Source: Candidatus Fimenecus excrementavium | Lineage (GTDB): Bacteria; Bacillota; Clostridia; Oscillospirales; Acutalibacteraceae | Reading direction: 5' to 3' | DNA: 64,000 nt | Assembly (NCBI GenBank): GCA_018712805.1 | Contig: DVGI01000027.1 | Location: forward strand, 1 to 64,000 | Shown: positions 5,045-63,792 of the stretch, one piece after another | How positions within the stretch are numbered: the first letter of the stretch is position 1 | How the letters are laid out: the number at the start of each line of letters is the position of its first letter | Notes under the pieces: generated by a model | What the model was told of the DNA's origin: nothing | What the model saw: only the letters and a program-made list of their open reading frames with translations | The model's database searches: none | Made by a program: the position numbers and the translations under genes

Positions 5045-5073
5045 TTGACCGAATATAAAAAATCGAGTAAAAT
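5045..5073 (+). promoter_or_regulatory. Sigma-A promoter with adjacent inverted repeat
   Basis: TTGACC (5045-5050), 17 bases, TAAAAT (5068-5073). Immediately downstream an inverted repeat GTCATA...TATGAC (about 5076-5098) covers the expected transcription start, a typical repressor position. No regulator is identified. Confidence 0.65.
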
Positions 5074-5128
5074 ATGTCATAGATCATAAAATTATGACGA
5101 TTGTCTCTCTATATATTCGGTGATAAAG

Positions 5129-5800
5129 ATGAAAAAAATTGTTGACTTTGATATTGTCGACATTATACCGTTTTCCTGCGGTATTATATTTTCCAAAAAA
5201 GAAATGCTCGGCGAAGACAAATGTAGGGTTTCCTTTTACGGATTAGATGTGCAGAAGATGAAAAACGCTCCGGTCACCCGCAGCGTTTATCTTTTAAACA
5301 AATTCGGAAACGGCTATAAAAAAATCGTCGACGAAATCGGCGACTATCTTTCGTGTGATGCCGACAGCTTTGCCGGCAACAACACGGTGCTTGTGTACCC
5401 CTCCGGTGAAACCGGCGTATTTGATTACAGCGGCAAAACCGTTTGGACAGGCGACCTGATGTATCACGGTCACCCGGTGCAGGGCGTCGCTTCCGACGGC
5501 AACCAAATTTGGTGCGCGGTACCCGAGCAAAACGCAATTATCAGTTACTCTATTGCACATAAAAAGTTTTATATGCGCATCGGCGGCGAAACCTCCACGG
5601 CATTTGACTGCCCCGTTTCCGTTACCAAATATGAAAATGAGTTGTTTGTCTGCAACATGGGCTCTTGCAAAATCCGCACGGTGGACTTGAAAAACTTTTC
5701 CGTCCATGATTTCCGAACATTTGACGAGCCGGTTTTGCGGTATATTCGCACCTGCGGCAAAGAAATTGTCCATCTGGACTCCGGCATATACATATTGTAA
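5129..5800 (+). CDS. Unknown protein, beta-propeller-like
   Basis: 223 residues from the ATG at 5129, which has a GGTGAT ribosome binding site five bases upstream; an in-frame GTG at 5120 lies inside that site and is less likely. No signal peptide or membrane segment. The sequence has repeated short strands with Gly/Asp turns (YPSGETGVFDYSGKTVWTGD; GVASDGNQIWCAVPEQNAI; ITYSI-type strands), suggesting a small beta-propeller or WD/NHL-like fold. No named family recognised. It is monocistronic, with its own promoter and a strong terminator at 5815-5842. Confidence 0.7.
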   Translation: MKKIVDFDIVDIIPFSCGIIFSKKEMLGEDKCRVSFYGLDVQKMKNAPVTRSVYLLNKFGNGYKKIVDEIGDYLSCDADSFAGNNTVLVYPSGETGVFDYSGKTVWTGDLMYHGHPVQGVASDGNQIWCAVPEQNAIISYSIAHKKFYMRIGGETSTAFDCPVSVTKYENELFVCNMGSCKIRTVDLKNFSVHDFRTFDEPVLRYIRTCGKEIVHLDSGIYIL

Positions 5801-5814
5801 GCAAAGCAAAATAA

Positions 5815-5842
5815 AAAAGACCCGGATTTTTCCGGGTCTTTT
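5815..5842. terminator. Bidirectional terminator
   Basis: A 12-base-pair stem (AAAAGACCCGGA with TCCGGGTCTTTT, loop TTTT) flanked by A and T runs lies between the convergent unknown gene and the permease gene, so it can serve both strands. Confidence 0.88.
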
Positions 5843-5856
5843 CTTTTGTTGTTTTT

Positions 5857-6843
5857 TCAGCGTTCCTCGCGGAAATAGTTGACGCCGACCGCGGCCGGTT
5901 CCGCGCTCTTTTTCTTTTTGCTGACAGAAGCAAAAACAAGCACCAACGCCGTAATCAGGAACGGCAGAAGCTGATAGAATTCATCGGGGATAAGCCGAAG
6001 CCATCCGAGCACGCGCGGGAAGGTTGCGCTGAGGTTGCCCTTCCATGCCATCAAAACGTTAAACATGCCGAAGAAGAACGAACCGAAAATGGCTTTCATC
6101 GGGTTCCAGTTTGCGAAGATAACCAACGCGACCGCAATCCAGCCCATGCCGTTAATCCAAAATTCGTTCCAGGAACCGCCGTTGATGACGAATGCCAAAT
6201 AAAGCCCGCCGAGGCCGGTAATTCCGCCGCCTAATACGATGTTGATATAGCGGGTGCGGTTGACGTTGACACCGCAGGCATCCGCCGCGCCCGGGTTTTC
6301 GCCGACCGCGCGAAGCCGCAGGCCGGTTTTGGTACGCATAACGTAAACCCACATAATAATTGCAACGACAATCGCAACATAAACAAAAATGTTGTAAGAA
6401 AACAGAAGTTTGCCGATATAAGGAATATCCCGAAGCACCGGGATGCCTTTATCCATAACCTTTTCGGCAAGGTCCGGATAATTGCTCAACAGCGGGAATT
6501 TGCCGGCTTTTGCAAGCGAACGGCCGACAAACAGGTAAACACCGTTGCCGAAAATGGTAAGGGCAAGACCGGTTACGTTTTGGTTTGCCTGTAAAGACAC
6601 GGTCAAAAACGCATAAATCAGCGCGCCGAGCGCCGCCGAGCAAAACGCCGCCAAAATACCGACCAGCAAGCTGCCGGAATAGCAGGCGGCGCAATAGCCG
6701 CCGATTGCGCCCATCGCCATCATGCCCTCGACACCGAGGTTCATATTGCCGGAGCGTTCGGTGACCACTTCGCCGGTTGTGCCGAACAACAACGGCGTGC
6801 CCATTCGAATCGAATAATAGAGAAAGTTAATAATTGTTTCCAT
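5857..6843 (-). CDS. BMP-type nucleoside ABC transporter permease (NupQ/YufQ-like)
   Basis: 328 residues with eight to ten hydrophobic segments and the family signature TERSGNMNLGVEGMMAMGAI near residue 30. This is the second permease of transporters using BMP family binding proteins, which import nucleosides or nucleobases. Its ATG overlaps the stop codon of the fused ATPase-permease gene by one base (TAATG), indicating translational coupling. It is the last gene of the purine uptake operon and ends at the bidirectional terminator. The exact substrate cannot be read from the sequence; guanosine or another purine is likely given xpt upstream. Confidence 0.9.
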   Translation of the reverse strand: METIINFLYYSIRMGTPLLFGTTGEVVTERSGNMNLGVEGMMAMGAIGGYCAACYSGSLLVGILAAFCSAALGALIYAFLTVSLQANQNVTGLALTIFGNGVYLFVGRSLAKAGKFPLLSNYPDLAEKVMDKGIPVLRDIPYIGKLLFSYNIFVYVAIVVAIIMWVYVMRTKTGLRLRAVGENPGAADACGVNVNRTRYINIVLGGGITGLGGLYLAFVINGGSWNEFWINGMGWIAVALVIFANWNPMKAIFGSFFFGMFNVLMAWKGNLSATFPRVLGWLRLIPDEFYQLLPFLITALVLVFASVSKKKKSAEPAAVGVNYFREER

Positions 6844-55327: not shown

Positions 55328-55389
55328 CTGTTTTTAAAAGCTTGACACGGATATTTTACAAAAGTCTATTTTGAATTTATCGCACAGCG

Positions 55390-55422
55390 AAAAACCCCGC
55401 CCGAAAGCAATCGGACGGGGTT
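55390..55422 (-). terminator. Terminator of the glycan-use operon
   Basis: AACCCCGTCCGA/TTTCGGGCGGGGTT stem (55393-55422, loop TTGC on the minus strand) followed by a T run, just after the MFS carrier stop codon. Confidence 0.85.
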
Positions 55423-55444
55423 CTTCGTCAGAGCATAAGTTCCT

Positions 55445-56932
55445 TTATTCTGTATCTTTAGGGGGAGATACAAAAGCGGCATTGTTTTCAGGGCCTTGTT
55501 CGCCTTTGGCTTTAAGCTCCGCGGCGCGGTTTTTCAGCACTGCTTCGTGGATTTCCTGTTTTCTCGCGCCGGTCAGGCGATAGAAGAAGAACGGAACGCC
55601 GGCGAGCAGCATCATAAGCCCATGGAAAATCGTGTAGAAAAACAACAGCATAATTTTGGTATGCAGCGTTTGATCGGGGTAAACGCCCTCCTGCGGCTGA
55701 ATGTATTGGATAATCGAGCTGTCGCCGTATAAAATCAAAGGCGCCACGCCGGTTGCGATTGCACCGCTGATGGTCGACCCGATGCCGCAAACAAAGCCGA
55801 GACTTGCATCCAAGCGTTTGCGGGTTTTCAGTTCGATGTCTTCGAGGATATCCGCCTGGAACATCGCCGGCAAAAGGTTGGACGCGCCGAACTGCAAGCC
55901 GATTAGGAACAAGGAAAGCACGAACACAATCTGAAGTGCGGACGAACCGGTTTTGAAATAGATTGTGCCGATTGTAAAAGCTAACGTATTGGCAAGCACC
56001 GAATACACACCGGACGCAATGTAAATCTGTTTGGAATTAAACTTATTCAAAAGCGCTTTGACAATCAGCATGCCGACAAACGTGCCGATACCCGTGGGAA
56101 GCCCCAACAGGATGTATTTGCTCGTAGAGCCGAGCAGCGCGGCGGCGAGGAAAATCCCCATATAGTTCGCTATGCCGCGGAAGTTTTTCAAAAATTCGCT
56201 CAAAAGGACAATCCAGGCATATTTGTTGGAGAGAATATCCAAATAGCCTTCAAGCGGGTTTTTGCGGGTGACGCTGTAGGTCACGCGCTCTTTAACCATA
56301 CTGCACGCGAGCAGCATAACACAGGTGCACACCACGGCGCAGGCAATCGCTGAGCCGAGATATTGCAGGCCCTCGTCGTCGGTAATCACGCCGGCGACCG
56401 CCACAACGACCAGCGGCGCGGAATTGCCGATGGCGTTGACGATACCGCGCCAGGTAAACGCCGTGTCGCGTTCGCCGCTGTTCGGGGAAATAACCACCGC
56501 AATGTTGTTGAGCGTGCCCGCAAAGGTGTTGGCGATATTGTATACGACTTGAATACAAATCAAGTAGGCTACAATGATTACACCGGTGCGCGGGATAAAG
56601 CTCGGCGTCCAAAACAAAAGCACAGTCAAAACCGCCGTCGGGATTGCCCAAATGCGGACAAACGGCTTAAATTTGTTGTGACCGTCTTTCGGCGGGCGGT
56701 CGATAATCATCATCAAAAAGAAATTGATGATAAAGCCCGCTATCGTACAAAAAGAATTAATGAAGCCCACCTGTTTGGACTCAAGTCCCAATACGTTTAC
56801 AAGGTAAGCCTGCCGGTAGTTACCGAGCATTCCCTGCATAGTCGTCAGGAAAAAAGTACCCATTAAAAAGATAATCAATTCTCTAGTCGGCACGAGTTTG
56901 TCGAGTTTCTCCCCAGTTTGCTTTTTAACCAA
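55445..56932 (-). CDS. MFS transporter, GPH (sugar:cation symporter)-like
   Basis: 495 residues with twelve membrane segments. GPH-type features: GMLGNYRQAYLVNVLG, GERDTAFTWRGIVNAIGNS and the long cytosolic ends. These carriers import disaccharides, oligosaccharides or glycosides with a cation. It starts with TTG at 56932 after an AGGAA site and is the last gene of the GH31 operon, so it likely imports the substrate split by the enzymes upstream. No other transporter is encoded nearby. Confidence 0.85.
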   Translation of the reverse strand: MVKKQTGEKLDKLVPTRELIIFLMGTFFLTTMQGMLGNYRQAYLVNVLGLESKQVGFINSFCTIAGFIINFFLMMIIDRPPKDGHNKFKPFVRIWAIPTAVLTVLLFWTPSFIPRTGVIIVAYLICIQVVYNIANTFAGTLNNIAVVISPNSGERDTAFTWRGIVNAIGNSAPLVVVAVAGVITDDEGLQYLGSAIACAVVCTCVMLLACSMVKERVTYSVTRKNPLEGYLDILSNKYAWIVLLSEFLKNFRGIANYMGIFLAAALLGSTSKYILLGLPTGIGTFVGMLIVKALLNKFNSKQIYIASGVYSVLANTLAFTIGTIYFKTGSSALQIVFVLSLFLIGLQFGASNLLPAMFQADILEDIELKTRKRLDASLGFVCGIGSTISGAIATGVAPLILYGDSSIIQYIQPQEGVYPDQTLHTKIMLLFFYTIFHGLMMLLAGVPFFFYRLTGARKQEIHEAVLKNRAAELKAKGEQGPENNAAFVSPPKDTE

Positions 56933-56953
56933 AGTTCCTGCACCTGCCCTCTT

Positions 56954-58309
56954 TTATTCCAAAATCAGCGTTGCGTTATAGTCGTCTATGCCGTAATTGC
57001 CGGCGGAATGTTTTAAAATCTCCGCCATATCCGCAAGGTCGCCTTCCAGCGTTTTGATACGTAGCTTTTTAAACACAAAGCGCAAGCGGCGAATTGCCGC
57101 CAACAGCACGTCGCCTTTCGGCGTTCCTTCAACGAAGGTTTGGTTCCCCTCTAAAACGCCGCGCACCAATTCGACAACATAGTTTTTAAACAGCATTTTG
57201 CGAATGGACTTGTCGCAATGTATGCACAACAGCCGCGCTACGCCCCCGACGGTCATTTTGTTGAGAATTTTGCCGAGCGTTTTAAAAACCGGGTAAAGCG
57301 ATTTTTTATCGGCGGCGCCGAATTTCTGCAAAAGCACTTCCGGGTTTTCGCGCATATCCTCGATGATATTTAAAATCATGCTGTCGAACAAATCGTCTAA
57401 ATATTGCTTGCAGTCACGCCCGCCGGTGTCCCAGTCGAAATCCGGCGTGGGAATACTTTCGATTTTTACGGTTTTTCGGTCAAGCACGGTCACAAGGCGC
57501 ATAAACGCCGGGTCGGCGATTGTGGAGCCGGTGCAGACATCGTAAAATTTATTGCCTTTTTCGGTGATTTTTTCGTTGATGCTTTGGTTGTGCATATGCC
57601 CCGTAAACACCAAATGCACGCCCTCGTCAGCGAGCATGGTGGTAATCGCTTCGGCGTTTTGTTGGACCGCAGTCGGAATAATGGAAAAAATCGGCTGACC
57701 GGGCAAAAGCGGATAATGATTCATCGCAATCATCATCTGCCCGTCGTCCCGCGCTTTTTTGGTTTGTTCTTTGATCCATGCAATTTGCCGGTCGTCATAA
57801 GTGATATTTTCTTCACAGTCGCCGTCATTGTTTAACGCGAGCAGGCGCACACTATCGGACAGCTGAACGACATAAGAAAGATGTTCGCGGTCAACGGCAA
57901 TCGCTTCGGAAAAACCGAAGTCGTAATACAAATCGAAAAGTTCTTCGCGCTTTGTGCCCTCCGGCTCGTGGCGGCCGGTCTCGTCAAACGAAAACGGGTG
58001 GTCGTTAAAATCGTGACCGGCGGTAATCACATAAACGCGTTTGCCGCTTTGCTTTAATTTGTTCAGTTCTTCGACGAACGCCAAATGACTTTCTTTTTCG
58101 CCGTTAAACGAAAGGTCACCGGCAATAAGCACAATATCCGCCAAGTCGCTTTCGGCGAGATAAGAAAGGACGGCTTTGTTAATTACTTCCGTTTCGGCAA
58201 AGCATTTTTGCTCGTAGCGCATGAAGCTGTCATACGCTTCACCGTGCGCGCCGAGAGAGTTTTTGAAATAATGGGTATCGGTAATCACAAAGAATTTTAA
58301 TTCGTTCAC
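56954..58309 (-). CDS. Calcineurin-like metallophosphoesterase
   Basis: 451 residues from GTG 58309, which overlaps the preceding stop codon (GTGA). Metal motifs: DTHYF, LIAGDLSFNGE, TAGHDFND (in place of the usual GNHD), MNHYPLLPGQ and FTGHMHNQ. An extra C-terminal helical region of about 170 residues has no recognised family. No signal peptide, so it acts in the cytoplasm. It is the third gene of the GH31 operon; its substrate may be a sugar phosphate or phosphodiester, which is inference from context. Confidence 0.88.
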   Translation of the reverse strand: MNELKFFVITDTHYFKNSLGAHGEAYDSFMRYEQKCFAETEVINKAVLSYLAESDLADIVLIAGDLSFNGEKESHLAFVEELNKLKQSGKRVYVITAGHDFNDHPFSFDETGRHEPEGTKREELFDLYYDFGFSEAIAVDREHLSYVVQLSDSVRLLALNNDGDCEENITYDDRQIAWIKEQTKKARDDGQMMIAMNHYPLLPGQPIFSIIPTAVQQNAEAITTMLADEGVHLVFTGHMHNQSINEKITEKGNKFYDVCTGSTIADPAFMRLVTVLDRKTVKIESIPTPDFDWDTGGRDCKQYLDDLFDSMILNIIEDMRENPEVLLQKFGAADKKSLYPVFKTLGKILNKMTVGGVARLLCIHCDKSIRKMLFKNYVVELVRGVLEGNQTFVEGTPKGDVLLAAIRRLRFVFKKLRIKTLEGDLADMAEILKHSAGNYGIDDYNATLILE

Positions 58310-60240
58310 GCCTCTCGCCTCTTTTCTGAAATCTTCGCTTTTAAAACCGGCATCCAAAGCCCCGCCTGGACGCTGCGGTGGTCCATGCCGCGTTCTTTGG
58401 GTTCTTTGGTTTCAAACCAATCGGTAAAGCAGTTGCGATCGTCGGTTTCCGCCAAAAAGCGGACAATGCATTTTGAAAACCGCTCAATGTTTTCGCCGGT
58501 ATCGTCTAAACACGCCGCCCAAAGCATCCAGTCGGATTTGGTGAAATCCGCACGCGAATCCAGCGGCACGCCGTAACGGTTAAGCTGTGCTTTGTATTGC
58601 TCGCTTTCCGCGCGGTAAAGGGCCTTGTCAAACAAATTGAATTCAAACAAAATGTCCCAAATCAAATTGTATTTCAAGCTCCAGCTTCCAGCGCCGTCTA
58701 AATTGAAGCGGAAATAGCCGTTTTCTTTTGCGAGCGCGGACAATTTTTGCGCATAATCTTTGGCAACTTGCATATCGTTTTGCGATTTACCGAGCGCTTC
58801 GCAGATTTTTGCAAAGCAGGCAATACCCATAACCGCTTTTATCGCAAGATTGACGTTTTTCTCACTGTGCCCGGCAAAATCGTCGGTGCAAAGCTGATTT
58901 TCTAACACCACACCGGTTTTTTTGAGAAACGCCGCCCATTTTTCGAGCAAGTCGAAATTCTCTAATAGCTGCATATCGTCGCCGGTTCTGCAATAATAGG
59001 CGTACGCCATAATCAGCATATTGCCGCACTCTTCCACCGGCATTTGATTTTTCTTTTGATAAATGGAAAAATCACGGCTTTTATAAACATTCTTCTTCGA
59101 CGCGCGTCGGAACAGTTCGTCTTTTAAAGCATAAGCCTGCCCGTTGGCTATGGGGTAAGTCCCAATGTCATGCGGCGCAAAATCCGCCTGCCAAACCGGC
59201 AAGCGTGCAAACGCGAAAATTCCGGTCAGCATCGCTTTGACAAGTTCGGGTTTATAAACCAAAAACATCGGGATTGCAGGATAAGACACATCGACGGTGT
59301 TTACACAGCCGTTCGAGTGACATTCTTTCGAGAGATATAAAAGCTCGCCCTGCTTATTGCGCACAAGCTTATGTGCGGCGAGCACCTGCCGCGCGGCGGC
59401 GGTCAATATAGCTTGATAAGCGCCGCCGAACGCAGCGGCGTCGGAAAGGAGCAAGTCCTCTTGCTGCTGCATTTTCACAAGCAGCATATCATGATTTTCG
59501 CGGCAATAGGCAATCGCCGCTTCGATTGTTTCAAAACGTTCGTGCCACAAGGCTTTTAGGGGCGTGTCAAAATATAAAATGGAATCAATGTCGTCATACG
59601 CCAAAATATTGCCGAACGTAACGGAGCCGGTAAACTCCGGGAAAGAAAAGGCGGACGTGAGCGCGGTTCCTTTAGAGCCGCCGAACGAAAGCCTGCCGCC
59701 TTCTAAATAGAAATACCCCCAGTCCGCCGAAACCCCGTCGCCGGATTTGCTTAACGGTTTTTGGTCGGTGCGGCCCATACGTGCGGCGGTGGTGTCCCCT
59801 GCCGCAACAAGTTTCTTTTCCACCTGTTTTGCGCGGCGGTCATAGCAAAATTCCTCATGCACACAAAGTGTGAGGGAAACGTCATGAGGGGTGCTGTCAA
59901 GCACCGTAAGCTTGTAATCAATAAAGGAGCACGGTGTGGACAAAATATGTAAATCCGCAAAGGTAAGCGGCGTCCAAAATCGCACATTCAAAGAAACAGC
60001 GGCGTTGGAAAACGTATACTCCGTGACATAGGGCGTGACAACCAGGTCTTTCTGCTCAATAACCGCGCCTTTGCCCTTGCCGAGAAAGCGAAATTTTTTG
60101 CCGTCGACCGTTACAAAGCCGGTCAGGCGTTTCGGGATGCCACACCAAAGGGTTGTGGGCGCGTCATACAGGTTTTCACTTCTTGACCAAATGCTGAAAA
60201 AGGGGTCAACGGTAATCAATGGATAAGCGGGAAGTCGCAT
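58306..60240 (-). CDS. DUF4965/glutaminase A-like family protein (possible glycan enzyme)
   Basis: 644 residues. N-terminal DUF5127-type beta domain, then an (alpha/alpha)6-barrel domain: IWSRSENLYDAPTTLWCGIP, VDVSYPAIPMFLVYKPELVK, MPVEECGNMLIMAYAY, GAGSWSLKYNLIWDILFEF, FTKSDWMLWAACL and FTDWFETKEPK. Members are named after fungal glutaminase A, but they occur in glycan-use operons and the fold is that of many glycoside hydrolases. No signal peptide here. Second gene of the GH31 operon; GGAGGACC precedes the ATG. Activity unknown. Confidence 0.82.
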   Translation of the reverse strand: MRLPAYPLITVDPFFSIWSRSENLYDAPTTLWCGIPKRLTGFVTVDGKKFRFLGKGKGAVIEQKDLVVTPYVTEYTFSNAAVSLNVRFWTPLTFADLHILSTPCSFIDYKLTVLDSTPHDVSLTLCVHEEFCYDRRAKQVEKKLVAAGDTTAARMGRTDQKPLSKSGDGVSADWGYFYLEGGRLSFGGSKGTALTSAFSFPEFTGSVTFGNILAYDDIDSILYFDTPLKALWHERFETIEAAIAYCRENHDMLLVKMQQQEDLLLSDAAAFGGAYQAILTAAARQVLAAHKLVRNKQGELLYLSKECHSNGCVNTVDVSYPAIPMFLVYKPELVKAMLTGIFAFARLPVWQADFAPHDIGTYPIANGQAYALKDELFRRASKKNVYKSRDFSIYQKKNQMPVEECGNMLIMAYAYYCRTGDDMQLLENFDLLEKWAAFLKKTGVVLENQLCTDDFAGHSEKNVNLAIKAVMGIACFAKICEALGKSQNDMQVAKDYAQKLSALAKENGYFRFNLDGAGSWSLKYNLIWDILFEFNLFDKALYRAESEQYKAQLNRYGVPLDSRADFTKSDWMLWAACLDDTGENIERFSKCIVRFLAETDDRNCFTDWFETKEPKERGMDHRSVQAGLWMPVLKAKISEKRREA

Positions 60241-60250
60241 ATGGTCCTCC

Positions 60251-62662
60251 TTACTCTAAATTTTCTAAAAGTGCCAAGGCCACAGATCTCGGCAATTTAG
60301 AAGCGCGTTTTACCTCCGCGCGAATTTCCTCGGCGGTTTCCAAACGCCGGAACGGCTTATAGGCTGAAGTCTTTTTCGCCGTCGTTGTCTGCCAAAGTTC
60401 CAGGACATGCACCACAGCGTCATGGGGCAAGGGATTTTGCCGTAGTTTTACACCAAAAAGCCGAATTTGTAATTTTGCATACTGCAAAGCATTTTCTACA
60501 CGAACGACAAGCGGCGCGCGACTTTGCGGTTTTGGGTATTGTGAAGCAAACGGAACGGTCATTTCGCCATTGGTGACCACGACTTCGGAACAAGTTAAGA
60601 CATCGCGGAAAATAAACGTGTATGCTCTGTCCGGCGGCAACAAATCCGCGTTGCCGACCGGCTTTTCAGCTGTGAATTCCAGCGTATCCCCCGTTTGTCG
60701 GACAGAAAACGCAGTGGTGACATGGTTCGATTCAAAATCGGTTTTGCCGCTGTCTTCAAATAACGTAAAGCTGCCGTAGCCTGCAAAAATGTGCAGTTCG
60801 AGATTTTTTGGATTCTCCGCTGTATTGCCCTCGTCCGCGCTCATCGGGAGAATCGCGCCGGCGCGCGCCAAAACCGGAATGGAAGCCAAGTCCCGGAACA
60901 GGGTGAGCGTTTTGCCGCCCGAATATTTCTGACCTGTGAAAATATCGGTCCATTCCCCTTTCGGCAGCCACGCTTCGACAGCGCCGCGGTTTAATTCCCG
61001 GCAATTGGGAGAAGTAATCGGGCAAACCAACAAATTTTCACCGAACATATACTGATTTTTGTGGGTGTAGGCTTCTTTCTCTTCCGGGTATAAATAATAC
61101 ATCGGCTCGCAAAGCGCAACGCCTTCGCTGTGGGTGCGGTAATCGAGCGTATATAAATACGGAATCAGGCGGTGGCGCAGACGCAAAAAGCGTTTGGCGA
61201 TTTCAAAAATCGGGCGGTTGTAGCGCCAGGGCTCTTTGCCGAGCAGGTCGTTGGAGGTGGAGTGCAGGCGCAAAACCGGGCTGAACACACCGAATTGCAG
61301 CCAGCGGATATATAAATTTTCATCACGTTTTCCAAAGTGGTGCCCGCCGATGTCGTGGCTCCACCAGGTATAGCCGCAGTTCGCCGCGTTGACGGTGAAA
61401 TAAGGCTGGAAATCCAAAACCTTCCAAGAGATTGCCGTATCGCCCGAAAAGCCCAACGGATAACGGTGACTGCCGATGCCGCCGTAGCGGGAAAGGATCA
61501 GCGGGATACGGCCGTCTTCCGCGTTGTCCAGATAATGATAATGATTCAGCGCCACCAGTGGGTCCAGCCCTTTGACATCGCTCTTTTTCCCTTGCTGCCA
61601 GTCAATCCACCAAAAATCAACGCCATCTTTTTCATAAGGCTTATGCAGCACATCAAAATAGGCATTCCAGAATTTCGGATCTTTACAGGAAAACGGAATA
61701 TCCTGTTTGGTTTTGGGGTCAATCCCCATGGCTTTAGCCATTTCGGGGTAAGCATCTTCAAAAAAGCGAACCCCGTCCGCCGGGTGGAGGTTTAGCGTGA
61801 TATGTAAGTTTTTAGATTTCAGATATTGCAAAAACGCACGGTAATCGGGAAACAAGTCGGTGTTCCAGGAATACCCTGTCCACCCGCCGCTGATGGGATT
61901 GTCCGACCAGGGATTGCTGCGGTAATGCGTGCCGAAGCGCGCGTTCAAATCCGTCCAGTGCCAGTCCATATCCACCGTGGCGACGGTCAGCGGAATGTCC
62001 TCGGTTTCAAACCGCTCCATCAGCTGTTCGTATTCCGACTGGGTATACTGCCGGTAACGGCTCCACCACACGCCGAGCGCAAAGCGCGGAACAATCGGAA
62101 CGGCGCCGCTGACCTTATAAAAATCACGGATGCAGTCACGATAGGCACTGCCGTATGCAAAAACATAATCGTCGCGCCCGTGCCCGGTGCGCGGTGTGAA
62201 TTCTCCGTTTTCATTTAACAAAATGCTGTCGCGGTCGTTCAACACGCTTACACCGTTTCGACTTAATAATCCGTCTTTCAGCGGAACCGGACCAAAGGTT
62301 TGGTCCAGCGTGCGGCAAGTGCCTTTCAGATTGCCTTTTTTGAAATTCTTGACGGTTTTCCCGCTGTCCAAAAATCTGACAGCCAGAAGCTTTCCGCTGT
62401 TGGCGGAAATAAAGAAACGGACTTTTTCCGTGGTCAACTCCAAAACACTGCCGCCACGTTTTTGTGCTGTGGAAAAGGTGCACGGCGGCTGACGGCGATT
62501 TAGAAACGCAATGCTCGGCAAATCGTTAAACCTGCCGCTTTTGTCGGCTTCTATGCGAATCATGCAAGGCGTAAACACCGTGACGCGGATATTACCGCAC
62601 TTACAGATTTGTTCCTCGCTCGCCTTGCCGCAGGTTTTTGCAATCAAACTGGGTTTCAGCAT
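60251..62662 (-). CDS. GH31 family alpha-glycosidase
   Basis: 803 residues. Barrel landmarks: GVWWSRYRQYT (197-207), TVDMDWHWTD (229-238), the nucleophile region FWWIDWQQG (Asp354) and the acid/base region FSGDTAISW (Asp408). Standard alpha-glucosidases of the family have DMNE after the nucleophile strand; here it is DWQQ, so the specificity probably differs from alpha-glucosidase. No signal peptide. First gene of the four-gene operon. A small hairpin (CGAAAT/ATTTCG, 62674-62688) abuts the GGAGG ribosome binding site. Confidence 0.9.
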   Translation of the reverse strand: MLKPSLIAKTCGKASEEQICKCGNIRVTVFTPCMIRIEADKSGRFNDLPSIAFLNRRQPPCTFSTAQKRGGSVLELTTEKVRFFISANSGKLLAVRFLDSGKTVKNFKKGNLKGTCRTLDQTFGPVPLKDGLLSRNGVSVLNDRDSILLNENGEFTPRTGHGRDDYVFAYGSAYRDCIRDFYKVSGAVPIVPRFALGVWWSRYRQYTQSEYEQLMERFETEDIPLTVATVDMDWHWTDLNARFGTHYRSNPWSDNPISGGWTGYSWNTDLFPDYRAFLQYLKSKNLHITLNLHPADGVRFFEDAYPEMAKAMGIDPKTKQDIPFSCKDPKFWNAYFDVLHKPYEKDGVDFWWIDWQQGKKSDVKGLDPLVALNHYHYLDNAEDGRIPLILSRYGGIGSHRYPLGFSGDTAISWKVLDFQPYFTVNAANCGYTWWSHDIGGHHFGKRDENLYIRWLQFGVFSPVLRLHSTSNDLLGKEPWRYNRPIFEIAKRFLRLRHRLIPYLYTLDYRTHSEGVALCEPMYYLYPEEKEAYTHKNQYMFGENLLVCPITSPNCRELNRGAVEAWLPKGEWTDIFTGQKYSGGKTLTLFRDLASIPVLARAGAILPMSADEGNTAENPKNLELHIFAGYGSFTLFEDSGKTDFESNHVTTAFSVRQTGDTLEFTAEKPVGNADLLPPDRAYTFIFRDVLTCSEVVVTNGEMTVPFASQYPKPQSRAPLVVRVENALQYAKLQIRLFGVKLRQNPLPHDAVVHVLELWQTTTAKKTSAYKPFRRLETAEEIRAEVKRASKLPRSVALALLENLE

Positions 62663-62785
62663 TTCATTTCCTCCGAAATTAAATTTCGCTGCCTGTCGGG
62701 AGATAAAAATATGGCTTTATCGCTCATTTTGAGTAAAACTTTCAAATATCACGCGGGATCATTTTAAAAACACTTACAACAAATT

Positions 62786-62813
62786 TATATAAAACTGCTA
62801 AAATTCATTGCAA
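62786..62813 (-). promoter_or_regulatory. Candidate promoter of the GH31 operon
   Basis: Minus strand: TTGCAA (62808-62813), 16 bases, TATATA (62786-62791). The -35 overlaps a CATTGCA site (62806-62812) that is repeated in the araC promoter. Confidence 0.5.
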
Positions 62814-62858
62814 ATTTTGTCATTATTTATTTATTATATTCTTATTTCTATTATAAGT

Positions 62859-62874
62859 ACATTGCATGCAATGT
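62859..62874. promoter_or_regulatory. 16-base perfect palindrome, candidate operator
   Basis: ACATTGCATGCAATGT is a perfect palindrome covering the araC -35. Its CATTGCA half-site recurs at 62806-62812, a 54-base step (about five helical turns), over the GH31 -35. Confidence 0.6.
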
Positions 62875-62891
62875 CAACAATATGGTATAAT
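62862..62891 (+). promoter_or_regulatory. Promoter of the araC-type gene
   Basis: TTGCAT (62862-62867), 18 bases, TATAAT (62886-62891) preceded by TGG, an extended -10. Confidence 0.7.
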
Positions 62892-62915
62892 GTGTATATT
62901 CAAGGCGGTGATATT

Positions 62916-63792
62916 TTGATTTGTGAAAAGCACATGATTTACAACACGCGTCTTTCCGACGAGCGCATTTACATTCAGGAAATCGGGAGTGAAGCCTGCA
63001 GCTGTGAAAAGAAAAGCCGGACGCATATTTTTCAATACAATTCCCTGCATTTTATCCTCGACGGCGAGGGAACGTTTAACGGGCAGCTTGTAAAAAAAGG
63101 CGACTGCTTTTATGTTAGAGAAAAGAACCTTGCTATTTACGAGGTAAACCCCCGAAAACCCGTGGCAATATTTTTGGATTAACTTTTCGGGAAGCCTTTG
63201 CGAAGATGCCATGGACCAAATCGGGCTGACCAGCGGCAGCGGCATTTTTCATTTGTCGGACATTGAAAAAATCCGTGCCATTTTCAAAGATGCCTTTTCA
63301 AAACGTCACCAAAACGCCGACGTGCATTTTTATATGGACAGCTATTTCTTCCGGCTTGTCGGTGCGATTGCGTCGGAGTTTGAAAAAACCAACGCAAAGC
63401 CCAGTCCCCTTTCCCTTTCGGAATCACGATTTCGCCAAGCGCTTGTGTTTATCGGCAACAACTACACCCACCGCATCACCGTTGCCGATGTCGCGAACAG
63501 CTTACAGGTGGAGCGGCAAACCTTGAGCCGGATTTTTCAAAAATATTCCGACCGTTCCCCGCAAACCTACATTTTGGAATTTCGGATGGAAAAGGCAAAA
63601 AGCCTTTTGCTGACGACGACCTATTCCATAACGGCGATTGCCTATTCGGTCGGCTATGACGATGTTTTGCAGTTCTCCAAAATATTCAAAGCCAAAGTCG
63701 GACTTTCGCCGAAAAAATACCGCGAGGAAGTCCAAACGCACGGCACAACGGCGCTGATTACGGAAGATATTCCGTATTCGACAAATTCGTAA
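62916..63792 (+). pseudogene. AraC family regulator, interrupted by a +1 frameshift
   Basis: Two frames together make one 291-residue AraC protein. The first (from TTG 62916, ribosome binding site GGCGGTGAT) encodes the cupin-like sensor half (YNTRLSDERIYIQ; HFILDGEGTF) and stops at 63180-63182. The second continues with WINFSGSL and the double HTH (ITVADVANSLQVERQTLSRIF; AYSVGYDDVLQFSKIFKAKVGLSP) to 63792. Removing one T from the run at 63171-63175 restores a continuous frame through VAIFWINFSG, the usual AraC junction. Whether this is mutation, slippage or base-call error cannot be told here. It is divergent from the GH31 operon, its likely target. Confidence 0.85.

Follow-up and report, generated by a model that had tools for sequence, protein, structure and literature searches.

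Introduction

On contig DVGI01000027.1 of Candidatus Fimenecus excrementavium (assembly GCA_018712805.1), of which we analysed positions 1 to 64,000 (the window, 64,000 nucleotides), four genes on the minus strand encode, in this order, a GH31 enzyme, a DUF4965 protein, a metallophosphoesterase and a GPH carrier, as assigned from open reading frames and Pfam matches. Described relatives exist for the three enzymes. LlGH31_u1 of Lactococcus lactis, the enzyme of PDB entry 7WJ9, is an alpha-1,3-glucosidase specific for nigerose and devoid of a signal peptide, with efficiencies on kojibiose and maltose that are 13% and 2.1%, respectively, of the nigerose value; its Gln343 is a contact of subsite +1, its His280 binds the glucose 6-OH in subsite -1, and its Tyr99 is not kept in every homologue, a Y99F variant retaining the substrate preference (from the part of PMC9061262 used here). 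For the DUF4965 family, the part of PMC9668830 used here describes a fungal relative that the activity probe JJB111 labelled, as it did many glycosidases, and a Streptomyces relative with weak beta-galactosidase and no glutaminase activity. For Lmo2642, the nearest solved relative of the phosphoesterase, the reference list of PMC4320098 includes a title that calls it a cyclic nucleotide phosphodiesterase.

We propose a model, which we favour with moderate confidence, in which the four genes form a single transcription unit for the uptake and cytoplasmic dismantling of a small alpha-glucoside, with the phosphoesterase acting on a phosphoester of the imported compound. Its direct basis is the gene order, the protein families, the conserved active-site residues of the GH31 enzyme, the folds predicted for the DUF4965 protein and for the phosphoesterase, and the repeated pairing of phosphoesterase and carrier; from these we infer transport, the action of the DUF4965 protein as a beta-glycosidase, whatever activity the phosphoesterase has, the sequence of steps and the substrate. 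As read from its sequence, the operon would be an ordinary kind of glycoside uptake unit in a new combination, and a search of the open literature, with subscription journals mostly outside it, did not find the four-gene combination described.

Pairing of the carrier with the phosphoesterase

The carrier passes the threshold of PF13347 (MFS_2), in keeping with the GPH-type assignment of the first-pass annotation, and scores 89.7 bits against TIGR00792, below the cut-off of 231.35. When 150 genomes of the window's family were scanned (cut-offs E 1e-40 for the phosphoesterase and the DUF4965 protein, E 1e-60 for the GH31 enzyme and the carrier), the phosphoesterase was present in at least 32, the DUF4965 protein in at least 19, the GH31 enzyme in at least 35 and the carrier in at least 17, all counts from the genome scans being lower bounds. 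In 10 of the 17 carrier genomes, representing ten genera (G000, G123, G021, G002, G108, G009, G034, G080, G057 and G043), the carrier and phosphoesterase genes share a strand and are separated by no more than two others; leaving out the window genome and G123, which seeded the phosphoesterase query, the figure is 8 of 15. The expectation is 0.1-0.3 such pairs, by simple arithmetic from the number of phosphoesterase matches and the genome sizes rather than from a shuffled control. Pairings were counted from scan coordinates; gene picking by longest frame dropped some true genes, such as the phosphoesterase of L117. The phosphoesterase is a frequent partner of the carrier rather than of the GH31 enzyme. 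A scan at the level of the order, covering 245 genomes including that of the window, found the phosphoesterase (E 1e-90) in at least four, the carrier (E 1e-60) in at least three and the DUF4965 protein (E 1e-100) in at least 44, and the phosphoesterase and carrier matches at these cut-offs all fell within the window's own family.

The glycosidase that accompanies the pair varies, being GH31_u1 in the window and locus L002, GH95 in L003 and L004, and GH36 in L157 and L115, where an AraC-type gene stands between the GH36 gene and the phosphoesterase-carrier pair (recognised by phmmer in L157 and by eye in L115). A GH36 gene also adjoins the carrier in L163, and a similar gene, recognised by eye only, stands at a contig end in L162. 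It looks as if carrier and phosphoesterase are the older unit, joined in a few genomes by the DUF4965 gene, with an exchangeable alpha-glycosidase that removes the cap.

Different cap enzymes (GH31_u1, GH95, GH36) near the same carrier and phosphoesterase would also fit the import of a glycosylated glycerophosphate or lipid head group, derived from teichoic acid or from deacylated glyco- or phospholipids, whose alpha-glucose, -galactose or -fucose caps are removed before the phosphoesterase cleaves the glycerophosphodiester. The nearest folds of the phosphoesterase include that of the glycerophosphodiesterase GpdQ, and the activity of LlGH31_u1 on kojibiose points the same way; however, ordinary oligosaccharides account for these observations too. 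To our knowledge a GH95-type cap is not typical of polymers of the teichoic-acid or lipid type, which counts against such a substrate, and we regard this explanation as improbable.

A DUF2804 gene (PF10974; L116 6957-8090) stands immediately ahead of one phosphoesterase-carrier pair.

The GH31 enzyme

The first-pass annotation had held that a GH31 enzyme with DWQQ after its nucleophile lies outside the known alpha-glucoside pathways, a claim that the comparison with 7WJ9 does not support. This entry is the best PDB match at 599 bits, the next other GH31 scoring 172 bits, with identity at 290 of 624 aligned residues (46%). In the alignment to 7WJ9 the nucleophile is D354 and the acid/base D408, and DWQQ begins at the nucleophile itself, exactly as Asp341-Trp-Gln343-Gln does in 7WJ9; since the motif is the same in that enzyme, it can be read as the nucleophile followed by the subsite +1 contact. 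The shared motif and the bit scores together rule out the view that the enzyme is unassignable.

Chain numbers of 7WJ9 exceed those of PMC9061262 by 20, a conversion that yields the residue named in the paper for nine of the ten positions looked up; position 429, at which the chain reads Gln and the paper gives Asn, is unusable. In the numbering of the paper, both catalytic and four binding residues are kept (His280, Asp341, Gln343, Phe391, Asp394 and His427), while Ser455 is replaced by Thr, Met122 by Gln and Tyr99 by Lys, the last in a poorly aligned loop and hence uncertain. We do not count these differences as defining; Tyr99 is known to vary among homologues, and Y99F keeps the preference. 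The enzyme is very probably a GH31_u1 alpha-glucosidase.

The DUF4965 protein

The only Pfam matches of the second protein are DUF4964, DUF5127 and PF16335, the last of which we take to be the former DUF4965, and Pfam did not place it in GH116 or GH52. Its AlphaFold model (mean pLDDT 90.7, from 28 sequences) retrieved GH116 beta-glucosidase entries first when compared with the PDB by Foldseek, with TxGH116 as the best (E 1.5e-19); the TM-score to the top GH116 match is 0.73 by query length and 0.62 by target. These were followed by GH52 xylosidases and the exo-beta-D-arabinanase 8ic6, and then by GH63 and phosphorylases. In a profile search a GH116 chain (E 0.04) and GH52 4c1o (E 0.076) matched weakly, each with a Glu opposite E306; in 4c1o this is E357, presumably the nucleophile of that enzyme. 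Against the GH116-family genes of L003, L004 and L009, a profile-profile comparison (probability 94%) sets D454 opposite their conserved Asp, and E306 falls about eight residues away from their conserved Glu. Both residues are invariant in all 28 DUF4965 sequences. We therefore name E306 and D454 as a putative catalytic pair only tentatively, since two weak alignments back E306 and the third does not. On the strength of its model the protein is probably a GH-O-like beta-glycosidase. A glutaminase function, for which the Pfam name alone speaks, was rejected in view of the tested Streptomyces relative (PMC9668830).

The GH116-family genes near DUF4965 genes lie at L003 1272-3836, L004 1248-3812 and L009 10945-13536, and the closest PDB match of the L003 gene is the exo-beta-D-arabinofuranosidase 8ic6.

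The weak beta-galactosidase activity of the Streptomyces relative (PMC9668830) would suit a further explanation, in which the GH31 enzyme would be an alpha-xylosidase and the DUF4965 enzyme a beta-galactosidase, both degrading oligosaccharides of the xyloglucan or host-glycan type, and relatives would add a GH95 alpha-fucosidase and a GH116-family enzyme. In L003 and L004, GH95 and GH116-family genes do occur close to the DUF4965-phosphoesterase pair, a GH116-family gene adjoins the DUF4965 gene in L009, and the deposition label of 7wj9 in the PDB is alpha-xylosidase. However, LlGH31_u1 is an alpha-glucosidase by assay (PMC9061262), and the retention of His280, with its contact to the glucose 6-OH, favours glucosides, so that we find this explanation highly improbable.

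The metallophosphoesterase

Lmo2642 (2xmo, E 2.9e-26) is the sole PDB match of the phosphoesterase by sequence at E <=0.1 and also the first Foldseek match of its model (pLDDT 81, from seven sequences), in which GpdQ (3D03) ranks fourth and Rv0805 lower; the protein has a helical C-terminal part. In binuclear metallophosphoesterases the Asn of motif III, GNH(D/E), binds metal. The window protein reads TAGHD in place of the canonical GNHD, whereas Lmo2642 has NHD there. We surveyed 60 homologues of at least 157 bits from all loci examined, counting identical last 200 residues once and dropping one fragment that lacks the region. Their motif III is as a rule TA[T/G/R/D/S]HD, with T in 27, G in 17, R in nine, D in four and S in three at the position of the canonical Asn; all 60 have motifs I, II, IV and V (DxH, GD, H and GHxH) intact, as well as the HD of motif III. 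Catalysis cannot be assumed, because the usual Asn is missing from motif III throughout. At E 1e-40 the window genome holds four members of this phosphoesterase family, the operon copy included.

This degenerate motif III would fit a phosphoesterase, from a family frequently found beside glycoside genes, that leaves the imported compound alone, its role being in signalling, in sugar-phosphate stress or non-catalytic, while the remaining genes serve the plain alpha-glucoside catabolism of nigero- or koji-oligosaccharides. The description of Lmo2642 as a cyclic nucleotide phosphodiesterase (title of a reference in PMC4320098) agrees with such a role, as do the many homologues without a recognised glycosidase neighbour and the variety of genes near the others, GH36 and GH95 by Pfam and GH30-, GH13- and GH78-like by eye. 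On the other hand, the same-strand pairing with one carrier clade across ten genera points to the imported compound, and the intact remainder of the motifs also speaks against such a role; we consider a phosphoesterase apart from the pathway rather unlikely.

An anti-phage role of the phosphoesterase was rejected, with no PADLOC family found and a weak NCBIfam match only (37.5 vs 420 bits). Distant phosphoesterase relatives adjoin, in three genomes, genes for proteins of 912-927 residues whose first residues look alike (L171 8472-11210, L175 9281-12049 and L165 13363-16146).

Gene order in relatives

We compared 31 loci with relatives of the DUF4965 protein, covering near relatives, several of which end at contig ends. 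As evidence on neighbours we take genes run against Pfam and stated phmmer matches, many others (GH30, GH13, GH51, GH127, GH125, GH78) having been named by eye. The DUF4965-phosphoesterase order of the window recurs in L002-L005 (4 of the 31 related loci). In L002 the genes 3' of the operon appear to be the same as in the window. L003 and L004 have the carrier, the DUF4965 protein, the phosphoesterase and a second phosphoesterase, with GH95 replacing GH31, and also carry a GH116-family gene and, in divergent orientation, a ROK-type gene; L004 lies on the same contig as G123. In L005 a gene of the metallo-beta-lactamase fold stands between the carrier and DUF4965 genes.

Upstream of the GH31 gene in L002, the closest relative, lies a GH109-like (PF21252) gene of the oxidoreductase fold (5063-6292).

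Transcription signals and flanking genes

The tight coupling reported in the first-pass annotation was reproduced from the open reading frames: 10 bases separate the GH31 and DUF4965 genes, the DUF4965 and phosphoesterase genes overlap by GTGA, and 21 bases precede the carrier gene. The longest open frame of the phosphoesterase reaches back to a TTG at 58357. The promoter match ahead of the GH31 gene (TTGACA-16-TATAAT) stands against a background of 14 matches of at least nine positions in the region vs 10.1 expected, so that its perfect score alone is notable. The palindrome that overlaps it is the one found at up to two mismatches vs 0.04 expected; its 12-base core was absent from the other 185 loci searched, the single match being the GH31 locus of the window itself. 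A hairpin followed by T residues stands directly 3' of the carrier gene, and a terminator pattern scan did not pick it up. Because the promoter match precedes the genes and the hairpin follows the carrier, the four genes are likely to be one transcription unit (Table 1).

Table 1. Operon genes, candidate transcription signals and the divergent regulator gene, in window coordinates
Feature	Position	Strand	Remarks
GH31_u1-type alpha-1,3-glucosidase (nigerosidase-like), probable	60251..62662	-	803 aa; PF01055 1.7e-58; 7wj9 E 9.9e-179
DUF4964-DUF5127-PF16335 (DUF4965) protein, predicted GH116/GH52-like glycosidase	58306..60240	-	644 aa; PF16335 3.4e-113; fold
Metallophosphoesterase, Lmo2642/GpdQ fold	56954..58309	-	451 aa; GTG start; Metallophos 3.2e-11
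GPH/MFS_2 family symporter	55445..56932	-	495 aa; TTG start; PF13347 4.8e-32
Sigma-70-type promoter match ahead of GH31	62850..62877	-	12/12 positions
Perfect 16-base palindrome ACATTGCATGCAATGT, operator candidate	62859..62874		palindrome scan; overlaps promoter match
Terminator-like hairpin and T run after carrier gene	55388..55427	-	-32 kcal/mol, z -7.6
Divergent AraC-type regulator gene, apparently frameshifted	62916..63792	+	open frames 62916-63182, 63211-63792; HTH_18 1.2e-22 in second part

The operon end given in the first-pass annotation, 62915, adjoins the start of the divergent AraC-type gene. As judged from its sequence, this gene is frameshifted, truly or through an assembly error, because its two open frames each align with the same intact 297-aa protein in L106 (32% and 35% identity). 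No match to the helix-turn-helix (HTH) part of this gene was found in L002. Downstream of the operon lie genes for a coiled-coil DivIVA-like protein (below the Pfam cut-off), a protein of the fumarase C-terminal type and a helicase-like protein (by eye), which look unrelated to it.

Discussion

We propose that the GPH-type symporter would bring in a small alpha-glucoside, from which the GH31_u1 enzyme would remove terminal alpha-linked glucose, preferring the 1,3-type and possibly accepting the 1,2-type. The DUF4965 enzyme, as a GH116/GH52-like beta-glycosidase, would open a beta-linked bond in the remaining core, and the metallophosphoesterase would act on a phosphoester in the compound delivered by the carrier. 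Import followed by intracellular cleavage, as the first-pass annotation had supposed, is likely given a single operon, a GPH-type carrier and three enzymes at whose N-termini no hydrophobic signal sequence is visible by eye. Uptake by the carrier we hold to be quite probable; action of the phosphoesterase on the imported compound is a tentative and somewhat doubtful part of the model, an idea that gains from the pairing of phosphoesterase and carrier and loses from the change in motif III.

Several observations weigh against this model. The four-gene order was found in L002 only, one of the 31 related loci, and L009 has DUF4965 and GH116-family genes together with a more distant carrier (286 bits), and no phosphoesterase. 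Among 34 other GH31 genomes, 20 were examined, and within 5.5 kb of the GH31 gene the phosphoesterase, the DUF4965 gene and any carrier match of at least 150 bits were absent; three of these neighbourhoods hold weak carrier-like matches of 52-74 bits, and in G149 a carrier orthologue lies about 7 kb from the GH31 gene. Because the GH31 neighbourhoods examined elsewhere in the family are without the other operon genes close by, GH31_u1 looks to be a mostly free-standing gene that was recruited into the operon here. In the 17 DUF4965 genomes besides the window genome and G123, neither the GH31 gene nor the phosphoesterase occurs within 6.5 kb. Seven of the 17 carrier orthologues have no phosphoesterase match nearby (G015, G008, G071, G098, G048, G138 and G149), those of G008 and G071 being on contigs of less than 9 kb. 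The regulator gene is frameshifted in the assembly, and the canonical Asn of motif III occurs in 0/60 phosphoesterase homologues.

The L002-only order and the family neighbourhoods rule out strong conservation of the whole operon. The first-pass annotation had let its reading depend on an order shared beyond this strain and on a GH31 enzyme outside any characterised subfamily that explains the operon. The full order recurs in one other genome, which is close to none, and two sub-units are kept more widely; the GH31 enzyme does group firmly with GH31_u1, a grouping that does not account for the phosphoesterase.

A broader possibility, which we put forward as speculative and rather improbable, is a modular uptake route for phosphoester-bearing glycosides across the family, composed of the GPH carrier clade, a phosphoesterase of altered metal site (TA-x-HD), an exchangeable GH31_u1, GH36 or GH95 enzyme and a DUF4965-type GH-O-like beta-glycosidase. 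If so, the carrier would be a transporter of phosphodiester glycosides. That a phosphoesterase clade without the motif III Asn accompanies one carrier clade in ten genera is a testable link, and the substrate of the phosphoesterase would show whether these bacteria import phosphorylated glycosides whole. With the GH31 puzzle solved by a known subfamily, the operon becomes mostly readable, and it provides a natural context in which an activity could be assigned to the DUF4965 family, named in Pfam after glutaminase.

Compared with LlGH31_u1, the operon enzyme shares 46% identity, DWQQ, the catalytic Asp pair, four binding residues and the lack of a visible signal peptide, and differs in having neither Tyr99, Met122 nor Ser455. 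The neighbourhoods described in the part of PMC9061262 used here have ATP-binding cassette (ABC) or phosphotransferase system (PTS) uptake and LacI-like regulators, in contrast to the GPH symporter and AraC-type gene found here, and that part names neither a DUF4965 nor a phosphoesterase gene. The GtaA-type DUF4964/5127/4965/1793 proteins (Phchr2|3002168 and Streptomyces WP_074995790, from the part of PMC9668830 used here) have three Pfam families of the set in common with the DUF4965 protein, and a GH116/GH52-like structure is predicted in both cases; Phchr2|3002168 has a secretion signal, whereas none is visible in the DUF4965 protein, which sits in an uptake operon. The phosphoesterase resembles Lmo2642 (2XMO) and GpdQ (3D03) in fold and in motifs I, II, IV and V, and Lmo2642 in sequence too, and is unlike them in its TAGHD motif III and its frequent pairing with a GPH carrier. 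Like the GPH (TIGR00792) cation symporters of the YagG type, the carrier matches PF13347 and adjoins glycosidases, while its TIGR00792 score, far below the cut-off, sets it apart as a divergent clade.

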